Origin: Gemmatimonadota bacterium
GTDB taxonomy: Bacteria; Gemmatimonadota; Gemmatimonadetes; Longimicrobiales; Gaopeijiaceae
Reading direction: 5' to 3'
Assembly: GCA_030827315.1 (NCBI GenBank)
Contig: JAURER010000013.1
Location: 1-64,000, forward strand
DNA: 64,000 nt
Shown here piece after piece: positions 22,073 through 27,280 of the stretch (within the stretch, counting starts at the first letter, position 1; every line of letters begins with the position of its first letter). A program made the position numbers and the translations under genes. Under the pieces are notes generated by a model. The model saw only the letters and a program-made list of their open reading frames with translations, was not told the origin of the DNA and ran no database searches.

Positions 22073-23134
22073 CTACTCCACGCGGATGGTTCCGGCCGGG
22101 CCTTCGCCCACTTCGCCGATCACGGCGAGGGCGGGGGTCCGGCCCTCGAGTCGCCGCAGGAGCGCGTCGAGCCTGTCCGGCGGCACGGCCATGAGCATCC
22201 CACCGGAGGTCTGCGCGTCCGCGAGCAGGACGTGCAGAATCGGGTCGACGGAATCCGCGAACGTCACTGCGCCGCGCACGTCCTCGAGGTTCCGTGTGCT
22301 GCCACCGGGCACGTGCCCGCCCTTCGCCAGCTCCACCGCGCCCTCGAGGAGCGGTACGTCGGCCGCACGCAGGGTCGCCGAGGCGCTCGACGCGCGGAGC
22401 ATGCTCCGGAGGTGTCCGAGGAGGCCGAAGCCCGTGACGTCCGTCGCGGCAGAGACACCGATCTCGGCCATGGCCGATGCGGGTGCCGCGTTGAGTGCGG
22501 TCATGACGGCGACGGCGCGCTCGATCTCCGTATCCGTGGCGTCCCCGCGCTTGAGCGCCGTCGCGATCACCCCGGATCCCAGCGGCTTGGTGAGCACCAG
22601 GCGGTCGCCCGGGCGCGCCCCGGCGTTGGTGACCATGTGCGCGGGGTGCACCTCGCCGACCACCACGAGTCCGTACTTGGGCTCGGCGTCGTCGATGGAA
22701 TGTCCGCCCAGTACCGGCATGCCGACGGAACGGGCGACGTCGTTCCCGCCGCGCAGGACCTCGTCGAGTATGCCGTGTGCGAGCAGCTTCCGGGGAAAGC
22801 CCACGAGGTTGAGCGCGAAGAGGGGTCGCGCGCCCATCGCGTAGACGTCGGACAGCGCGTTGGTGGCGGCGATGCGCCCGAAGTCGTAAGGGTCGTCGAC
22901 GATGGGCGTGAAGAAGTCTGCCGTCACGACCAGCGCGCGGTCGTCGGCGATGCGATAGACGGCCGCGTCGTCTCCCGTCAGGTGGCCGACGAGGACGTTC
23001 GGATCGTCTACCGGAACGATGTGACGCAGAACCTGCGTCAGCTCGGACATGCCGAGTTTACACGCTCAGCCGGCGCCGTGGCTGAGCTGGGACAGCCGGA
23101 TCTCCGGCCGTTGATCCCTGGGCTCGCTTGCCAT
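22073..23134 (-). CDS. selD: Selenide, water dikinase SelD, itself a selenocysteine (UGA) protein
   Basis: SelD makes selenophosphate from selenide and ATP. From ATG 23134, behind GAGGAG, the frame reads IRLSQLSHGAG, then TGA at 23066-23068, then ACKLG and the rest of a complete SelD, 353 residues counting the UGA. The TGA is residue 23 and falls where E. coli SelD has catalytic Cys17; Lys26 matches Lys20. Downstream marks are GDDAAVY, DFFTPIVDDPYDFGRIAATNA, GGHSIDD, TDVTGFGLLGH and DAQTSGG. A perfect 7-bp hairpin follows the UGA by 26 bases. Starting at ATG 23050 would drop both catalytic residues. Sec-containing SelD is known in other bacteria. The gene is convergent with lon. Confidence 0.93.
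23023..23039 (-). promoter_or_regulatory. bSECIS element of selD
   Basis: On the minus strand GACGCAG, loop GTT, CTGCGTC form a perfect 7-bp stem with a 3-nt loop whose first base is G. The loop starts 33 bases after the UGA codon, within the known bacterial SECIS range. SelB would bind it to decode the UGA. A nearer 5-bp hairpin (23042-23056, loop CATGT) lacks the G at the loop start and is the weaker candidate. Confidence 0.75.
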
Positions 23135-25287: not shown

Positions 25288-25935
25288 TCAGCCTCCGAGC
25301 GCGTCGAGTGCCGCGAGGATGTCCGCGTTCTCCGGGCGAATGCGGTAGTTCACCTCCGTCATCTTCCAGCGGACCACGCCGTTCGTATCGATCACGTAGG
25401 TGGTGGGATGCGGGATCGCGCGGCCGCGGGGGTCGTCCTGGTTGAACAGCCCATACCGGTTGATGACGGCGGCACCCGGGTCGGAGAGGAGCGTGTAGTC
25501 GAGCACGAGGCCGTCGTTCTCCTCCGCGACCCGATCGACCATCCGCTGGAGATCCGACGGATCATCGGAGGAGATGGCCGCGAGCTTCGTGGACGCCGCC
25601 TGCTTCTCGCTCAGCATTCCCTGCAGCTCCCCGAGCTGCTGCGCACAGTAGGGTCACCAGTGCCCGCGGTAGAAGACGAGGATCACGTTCTTCGCGCCAC
25701 GAAAGTCGGAGAGCGTCCATGTGGGACCGGCCAGTGAGGCCAGCGCGAAGTCGGGCGCCGGCTCCCCGACCCGAACGCGGTCCAGATCGACGCCGGGAAG
25801 GTCCGCACCATCGACCGGGCCGAGAACGACGACGTCGGGCCGCCGTGTGCCGGTGTCGCCGGCCGGCTCCGCTCCGGTGCCGCATGCGGCCAGCGCCGTC
25901 AGTACCAGCAAGCATGCCGCGCGTCCTCGGATCAT
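25288..25935 (-). CDS. Lipoprotein peroxiredoxin-like protein with in-frame UGA (selenocysteine)
   Basis: Read from ATG 25935, the gene gives a 215-residue protein. The signal peptide ends LTALAAC (lipid Cys18), followed by a thioredoxin-fold AhpC/TSA domain (GEPAPDFAL, VILVFYRGHW). UGA at 25654-25656 is residue 94, followed by P-Y-C97, so the active site is U-x-x-C where homologues have CPYC. Beyond the UGA the fold continues: QLGELQ, LAAISSDDPSDL, YGLFNQDDPRG, PHPTTYVIDTNGVVRW. A perfect hairpin lies 14 bases after the UGA. ATG 25935 overlaps the YpdA stop by 4 bases. It probably reduces peroxides or disulfides at the periplasmic face. A Cys-to-stop pseudogene is less likely because the frame continues intact for 121 residues. 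Confidence 0.9.
25623..25639 (-). promoter_or_regulatory. bSECIS element of the selenoperoxiredoxin
   Basis: On the minus strand GCAGCTC, loop GGG, GAGCTGC form a perfect 7-bp stem with a 3-nt loop starting with G. The stem begins 14 bases after the UGA and the loop 21 bases after it. The same stem length, loop length and leading G occur in selD, although the sequences differ and both lie inside coding sequence. Confidence 0.75.
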
Positions 25936-26936
25936 CCGCCAACTCCCGTCCGGCCCCGGGAGAGCCGGTCCGCCACGATCCGTGCGCCGTGCTCGCGGCC
26001 GTTCTCGATGAAGATCCTGTTCGCATTGTGCCCCGCGGCGATGACGCCCGCGATGTAGAGACCCGGCACGTCCGTTTCCATCGTCGAGGGCTCGTGGGCG
26101 GGAATCCCCGTCTCGTCGTCGATGGCCACACCCAGCGCCGCGAGCTGGGCGTGATCGGAGCGCCAGCCGGTCATCGCCACCACGAAGTCGTTCGCGATTT
26201 CGGTCGTGGCGCCGTCTTCCTCGGACCGCAGCACCACGGAGCCCGGACGGATCTCCGCCACCCGGTGCTTCCAGTACACGGGGATCTCTCCGCGCTCCAG
26301 CCGGTTCGTGATGTCGGGCACCACCCACGGCTTCACTCCACGGTCGATCGTGTCGAGGAAGTGCACCAGGGTCACACGCGCGCCGTTGCGGAACATCTCC
26401 AGGGCCGACTCGACGGCCGAGTTGCCGGCTCCGACCACGAGCACGTCCTGGTCGAAATACGGGTACGGTTCCCGGTAGTAGTGCCGGACCTTGGGCATCT
26501 CTTCCCCCGGAACGCCGAGGAAGTTCGGTGCCTGGAAGCCTCCGGTGGCGACGACGACGGCGGCCGCACCATATTCGCGCTGTGAGCCTTCGGCCTTCTC
26601 GGTGCGCACCGTGAAGCTGCCTTCCGCTCCCTCGATGGCGACGACCTTTTCGTACTGACGCACGTCGAGTTCCCAGTGGCTCACCACCCGCCGGTAATAG
26701 GCGAGCGCGTCCCGGCGCGTGGGCTTCTGGTCGGGAATGGTGAACGGGACGTCGCCGACCTCCAGCATGACCGCCGTGCTGAAGAAGGTCATGTAGTAGG
26801 GGTACGCCACGATGGAGCTCGTGACGCACCCCTTGTCGAAGAGCGCACAGGACAGCCCTGCCTGGCGGGCTGCCGCACCGACGGCGATCCCGCATGGTCC
26901 GGCGCCCACCACGATGAGGTCGAATCGATCGGTCAT
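25932..26936 (-). CDS. ypdA: YpdA family FAD-dependent (bacillithiol) disulfide reductase
   Basis: A 334-residue single-FAD flavoprotein. The FAD motif is GAGPCGIAVGAA with Cys15 in the GPCG position, the residue shown in YpdA/Bdr of Gram-positive bacteria to be needed for bacillithiol disulfide reduction. An NADPH motif GAGNSAVESAL lies near residue 180, GGFQAPNFLGVPGEEMPKVRHY between the domains, and a C-terminal TDVPGLYIAGVIAAGHNANRIFIENG. ATG 26936 begins the canonical N terminus. It is the first gene of a two-gene unit, and its stop overlaps the peroxiredoxin start as ATGA, so the reductase and the selenoprotein are co-translated. Bacillithiol synthesis genes are not in the window. Confidence 0.9.
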   Translation of the reverse strand: MTDRFDLIVVGAGPCGIAVGAAARQAGLSCALFDKGCVTSSIVAYPYYMTFFSTAVMLEVGDVPFTIPDQKPTRRDALAYYRRVVSHWELDVRQYEKVVAIEGAEGSFTVRTEKAEGSQREYGAAAVVVATGGFQAPNFLGVPGEEMPKVRHYYREPYPYFDQDVLVVGAGNSAVESALEMFRNGARVTLVHFLDTIDRGVKPWVVPDITNRLERGEIPVYWKHRVAEIRPGSVVLRSEEDGATTEIANDFVVAMTGWRSDHAQLAALGVAIDDETGIPAHEPSTMETDVPGLYIAGVIAAGHNANRIFIENGREHGARIVADRLSRGRTGVGG

Positions 26937-27019
26937 GTCCAGTGCGTTACCCTTTTCGCTCGATCTGTTCCTGTGCCGGCCGCCTTCCCCGCCGAGCATT
27001 CCCGCCGCATGATGACGCA

Positions 27020-27280
27020 ATGACATCCGCAGAATCCGAAGCACGCAAGGCGCTGAACCGGCTCCGTCGCGCCATGGAGAAGGCCGAGCGCGAAATGGAT
27101 GCGCTCCACGGGGCCCTGGTCCATGCCGAAGGGGACGATTTCCCGGCCGAAAGGTATGACGAAATCACGGCCGCCGTTCGCCGAGTCCTGGAATTCACGG
27201 ACGACGAGGGGGAGCGCCTTCGGGAGAAGATTCTGCATGCGGGCGGGCTCGAGCCGGGTCGTGTCCGAAGGAATTCCTGA
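27020..27280 (+). CDS. Small charged hypothetical protein
   Basis: An 86-residue protein predicted to be almost entirely helical, with heptad-like runs (ALNRLRRAMEKAERE, then a second helix AAVRRVLEFTDDEGERLREKI) suggesting a short coiled coil. No signal peptide, membrane segment or cysteines are present. It begins 83 bp upstream of and divergent from ypdA, and ends 42 bp before the D-aminoacylase-like gene on the same strand. I do not recognise a family. ATG 27020 is the first in-frame start that leaves the ypdA leader free. Confidence 0.6.
   Translation: MTSAESEARKALNRLRRAMEKAEREMDALHGALVHAEGDDFPAERYDEITAAVRRVLEFTDDEGERLREKILHAGGLEPGRVRRNS

Follow-up and report, generated by a model that had tools for sequence, protein, structure and literature searches.

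An in-frame UGA in a peroxiredoxin-like lipoprotein gene of Gemmatimonadota very probably encodes selenocysteine in a UxxC redox site

The window analysed here is a stretch of 64,000 nucleotides from a Gemmatimonadota bacterium (contig JAURER010000013.1), on the minus strand of which a peroxiredoxin (Prx)-like gene carries a TGA codon within its reading frame. The question raised by this locus is whether the codon ends the protein or is read as selenocysteine (Sec), and, in the latter case, what kind of redox protein is produced. As detailed below, the TGA very probably encodes Sec in a redox protein with a UxxC site, and the insertion of Sec at this codon (UGA94), taken by itself, is practically certain. 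The gene starts with an ATG at 25935–25933, followed by 93 codons up to the single in-frame TGA, 121 intact codons after it and a terminal TGA stop at 25290–25288. The features concerned are as follows.

25288–25935, minus strand: the selenoprotein gene, encoding a lipobox signal peptide and an AhpC/TSA-Redoxin (thioredoxin-fold) domain, 215 amino acids with Sec94
25654–25656, minus strand: the in-frame UGA, assigned to Sec94, first residue of the UxxC motif; every one of the 18 closest homologues has TGA here, as do 68 of the 71 phylum-sample members

When read through, the protein matches PF00578 (AhpC-TSA, 1.5e-30) and PF08534 (Redoxin, 3.7e-20), which confirms the preliminary description of this locus, where an in-frame UGA followed by 121 intact residues had been reported. 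None of the NCBIfam models passes its own cut-off against the protein. The UGA lies in the motif FYRGHW-U-PYC. By eye, the N-terminus LLVLTALAAC contains a lipobox (LAAC) with Cys18, and in the relatives this region holds a comparable lipobox, a membrane anchor or a signal peptide; the protein is thus predicted from its sequence to be exported as a lipoprotein. The AlphaFold2 model has a mean pLDDT of 81.9, with the domain mostly above 90, and among solved structures it comes closest to AhpE and PrxQ (TM-score normalised by target of ~0.8), so that the overall fold is that of a peroxiredoxin.

A collection comprising 84,980 genomes was searched for homologues of the gene, whereby one of the search patterns demanded a Cys codon at the UGA site and therefore biased the search towards Cys versions. 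All 18 closest homologues, from Gemmatimonadota (11), Acidobacteria (1) and Rokubacteria (6), have TGA at the UGA94 codon. In addition, a profile search was applied to a phylum sample of 298 Gemmatimonadota genomes. Close members of the family, scoring 189–345 bits, were found in 71 of these, about a quarter. TGA interrupts the profile match in 68 members, as checked codon by codon for those examined as individual loci, while the other three (L128, L129 and L130, from genomes G039, G074 and G278, all of one genus) contain TGC and no stop. The comparison of homologues across the UGA, which had been proposed beforehand, therefore returned Cys at this very position of the redox site in three members and TGA in the others. 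The relatives terminate at the corresponding position with any of the three stop codons (TAA, TAG or TGA), whereas an internal stop is without exception TGA. A search of plasmids yielded only distant homologues with less than 60% identity.

Since the same TGA is present in all 18 closest homologues and in 68 of the 71 phylum members, its occurrence in this gene is not due to chance. An in-frame TGA is by default a stop, and the source genome (3.07 Mb, 98% complete) is a draft in 99 contigs, which could suggest a nonsense mutation or a sequencing error, the gene being a pseudogene or the base really belonging to TGC or TGT. This explanation is already refuted by the conservation of the UGA across independent assemblies, and it would be extremely improbable also in view of the substitution pattern: the dN/dS 3′ of the UGA is ~0.08–0.11 relative to the relatives, which in most comparisons does not exceed the value 5′ of the UGA. 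Purifying selection thus acts on the gene downstream of the UGA.

The decoding of UGA as Sec depends on SelA, SelB, SelD and tRNA-Sec, the absence of which had been named in the preliminary description as evidence against Sec. All four are present in the source genome. SelA and SelB scored 518.5 and 344.7 bits, respectively, and the tRNA-Sec, with anticodon UCA, scored 68.8 bits, above the Rfam cut-off. SelD is encoded in the window itself, 2.2 kb from the Prx-like gene.

22073–23134, minus strand: SelD (TIGR00476, 1e-117), with an in-frame TGA at 23068–23066 (GAG-U-ACKLG)

This TGA must also be read in order to obtain a complete SelD. A hairpin, ACGCAG-GUU-CUGCGU, starts ~27 nt after the SelD UGA, with its loop 33 nt from it. 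A codon-bias scan of the window for TGAs that might be read through yielded 32 candidates, among which the downstream signal was strongest in the Prx-like gene (0.48) and SelD (0.45), followed by the next candidate at 0.36.

Across the phylum sample, SelA was found in 221 genomes and was missing from 77. It occurs wherever a TGA member does (68 of 68 genomes) and in none of the three genomes with a TGC member, and these three also have no SelB above the cut-off and no tRNA-Sec. Fisher's test for the association of TGA with SelA gave 1.7e-5 among the family members and 7.7e-11 over all 298 genomes; because the genomes are related and the draws not independent, these values overstate the independence of the data, but the direction is without exception all the same. 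In one genome with SelA and SelB and a family member (G123), no tRNA-Sec was found above the threshold, perhaps as a result of its fragmented assembly. Taken together, the claim of Sec insertion at a UxxC site is strongly supported. As a separate observation, four genomes of the window's own genus (G153, G229, G256 and G277) contain SelA and lack a close member of the family. Three of them are clearly smaller (2.3–2.4 Mb), suggesting that the gene was lost there without losing the Sec machinery.

These distributions also bear on two other ways of reading the codon. An open reading frame of 109 amino acids starts at ATG 25617, from which a second protein could be made after a first one ending at UGA94. 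Such an arrangement would split the conserved UxxC motif, the following helix and the domain core, and the TGC relatives are single, uninterrupted proteins, with TGA tracking SelA; we regard two products as having hardly any likelihood. The frame is equally open when TGA is translated as Trp or Cys, as would be expected for a reassigned code or nonspecific read-through. Nevertheless, the upstream ypdA gene ends in TGA, and TGA also serves as the terminal stop of the Prx-like gene, at a place where relatives use TAA or TAG. Moreover, the full Sec machinery is present, and the genomes devoid of it have Cys (TGC) and never Trp, which makes the insertion of another amino acid exceedingly unlikely. 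Sec at UGA94 is thus retained as the explanation.

Directly after the UGA, the mRNA can form a hairpin of the bacterial SECIS (bSECIS) type.

25624–25638, minus strand: bSECIS hairpin CAGCUC-GGG-GAGCUG, extendable to seven pairs by G25639 and C25623

The four published rules for bSECIS elements specify a loop of 3–9 nt with a G in its first two positions, a stem of 4–16 bp, a loop located 16–37 nt from the UGA and a minimum free energy of at most −7.5 (PMC13188914). The hairpin starts 15 nt after the UGA and agrees with all of them, with a 3-nt GGG loop (GG in the loop positions), a stem of 6–7 bp, a distance of 21 nt between loop and UGA and a folding energy of −12.7 kcal/mol. The hairpin at a fitting distance that had been noted before therefore holds. 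Compared with synonymous shuffles, its free energy was unremarkable (p of 0.38 for this gene; mean z of −0.66 over 46 genes). For this reason, the energy by itself was no longer taken as evidence, and a test based on codon wobble positions was used instead, covering 43 distinct Gemmatimonadota genes. The stem codons proved to be fixed at the wobble base (CAG in 43/43, CTC in 42/43, GAG in 39/39 and CTG in 43/43), whereas the wobble base of the GGN loop codon is spread over all four bases, the most common one reaching 30%, and Leu codons elsewhere vary. This difference between a frozen stem and a free loop is the strong evidence for the hairpin. In Rokubacteria and in the Poribacteria homologue described below, the hairpin persists with a changed sequence and the GG loop is kept. 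In the TGC genes, some of the stem pairs are lost, and two of the three have also lost the GG loop. The comparison thus shows that UGA94 and the downstream hairpin are kept under selection, and only in genomes with the Sec machinery.

In the phylogenetic tree, a single clade made up of the three TGC members is drawn within the TGA members. The topology test did not reject a placement of this clade outside the TGA members (p-AU of 0.165). Given that the Rokubacteria outgroup also has TGA, a single change from Sec to Cys is the most economical reading. It seems reasonably likely that, in this one Gemmatimonadota genus, Sec was replaced by Cys as the whole Sec machinery was lost, leaving the SECIS hairpin to decay.

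To characterise the type of active site, the protein was aligned with peroxiredoxins and with TlpA/ResA-like relatives, in which two further residues are of importance.

25645–25647, minus strand: Cys97, second Cys-type residue of the UxxC motif, aligned with the peroxidatic Cys of peroxiredoxins
25405–25407, minus strand: Pro177, invariant in 18 sequences, in the column that holds the cis-Pro in TlpA/ResA and the catalytic Arg in peroxiredoxins

In place of the Thr/Ser of the peroxiredoxin Thr/Ser-x-x-Cys(P) motif, the protein has Sec94, and the position of the catalytic Arg is taken by the invariant Pro177, followed by Thr. In the TlpA/ResA-like relatives, the same columns contain CxxC and Pro-x-Thr. 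The alignment of Sec94, Cys97 and Pro177 therefore points to a thioredoxin-like site (UPYC) on an AhpC/TSA scaffold, as in Prx-like thiol:disulfide oxidoreductases with a UxxC motif and a PF00578 domain. The protein differs from TlpA/ResA proteins in having Sec for the first Cys, a longer C-terminal part of the AhpC/TSA type and peroxiredoxins as nearest folds. Members of the TlpA/ResA group are typically membrane-anchored or exported.

The locus had been described as encoding a selenocysteine peroxiredoxin, of which the first word stands and the second does not, owing to Cys97 at the peroxidatic position and Pro in place of the catalytic Arg. In Sec-containing peroxiredoxins (TxxU), which share the fold superfamily, Sec is the peroxidatic residue, whereas here that place is occupied by Cys97 and Sec is found at the Thr place. 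Could the protein still be a true peroxiredoxin, with Cys97 as the peroxidatic and Sec94 as the resolving residue, perhaps fed by YpdA and bacillithiol? AhpE and PrxQ as nearest solved folds and the alignment of Cys97 would fit, as would the neighbouring gene and the presence of BshC in the source genome.

25932–27044, minus strand: YpdA-family putative bacillithiol disulfide reductase (TIGR04018, 409.5 bits; cut-off 339.9), its own start being uncertain

The stop codon of ypdA (25934–25932) overlaps the ATG of the Prx-like gene in an ATGA. This coupling, to which attention had been drawn earlier, is real in the window, but as a conserved arrangement it does not hold: YpdA was considered as a conserved operon partner and rejected, because in most relatives the two genes are set apart by a stretch of up to ~2 kb, which varies from one relative to another. 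In addition, the peroxiredoxin catalytic Thr is replaced by Sec and the Arg by an invariant Pro, and, whereas YpdA is cytoplasmic, export is predicted for the Prx-like protein. With BshC present, the cytoplasmic task of YpdA may lie with bacillithiol, separate from the exported protein. A true peroxiredoxin is therefore considered unlikely, while a thioredoxin-like role appears probable from the sequence comparison; the reduction of peroxides is a less likely possibility. In Gemmatimonadota, the conserved gene order is amidohydrolase, YpdA, the Prx-like gene, YgfZ, a transglutaminase-like gene and SelD; of the 11 loci examined, 8 have SelD near the Prx-like gene. The window also contains a cobalamin riboswitch at 671–799 on the plus strand (72.8 bits).

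The literature on Prx-like UxxC selenoproteins of PF00578 goes back at least to 2005 (PMC1088965; PMC13188914). The published Prx-like thiol:disulfide oxidoreductase selenoproteins (UxxC/UxxU; PMC13188914, Table 1; PMC1088965; PMC1794560) share with the present protein the PF00578 domain, a distant homology to peroxiredoxins, UxxC in place of TxxU and a bSECIS just after the UGA. In contrast to that set (type sequence WP_010940744.1), judged by its published descriptions, our protein is a predicted lipoprotein with the motif FYRGHW-U-PYC and the C-terminal blocks IPHPTTYVID...RPEN. A Redoxin family selenoprotein (PF08534, UxxC; PMC13188914, Table 1, HEU0032618.1) has the same domain and motif and, judged by its description, could be identical with the present subfamily or distinct from it. 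In the collection of papers that we searched, none dealt with Gemmatimonadota selenoproteins. The protein is a new member of the known UxxC class of Prx-like thiol:disulfide oxidoreductase selenoproteins, apparently from an unnamed lipoprotein subfamily, which was found here in Gemmatimonadota and Acidobacteria, with a deeper branch in Rokubacteria. More distant Prx-like genes with 29–33% identity (L136 to L139, from G259, G007, G104 and G097, respectively) also carry TGA as the first residue of UxxC, indicating several UxxC selenoprotein families in Gemmatimonadota. A distant homologue from Poribacteria (L037, TGA at 1523–1525) has the motif W-U-PVC and a hairpin that resembles the one described here in shape, though not in sequence, and sits on a very long tree branch.

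Following the established biology of Sec incorporation, SelB carrying Sec-tRNA(Sec) would bind the hairpin and insert Sec at the UGA. The product would be an extracytoplasmic lipoprotein thiol:disulfide oxidoreductase of the thioredoxin/TlpA type on an AhpC/TSA scaffold, in which an attack by Sec94 on an oxidised substrate, such as a disulfide, may be followed by resolution of the intermediate by Cys97. Annotation pipelines that treat TGA as a stop truncate this protein right at its active site. Changes from Sec to Cys in prokaryotes have been documented mainly for FdhA and SelD (2026 review, PMC13188914), which makes a case in a thiol oxidoreductase family worth following. In this family, nature provides a clean comparison between Sec and Cys versions of a single protein, in genomes that have kept or lost the machinery, which is useful for asking why bacteria retain or abandon selenocysteine.
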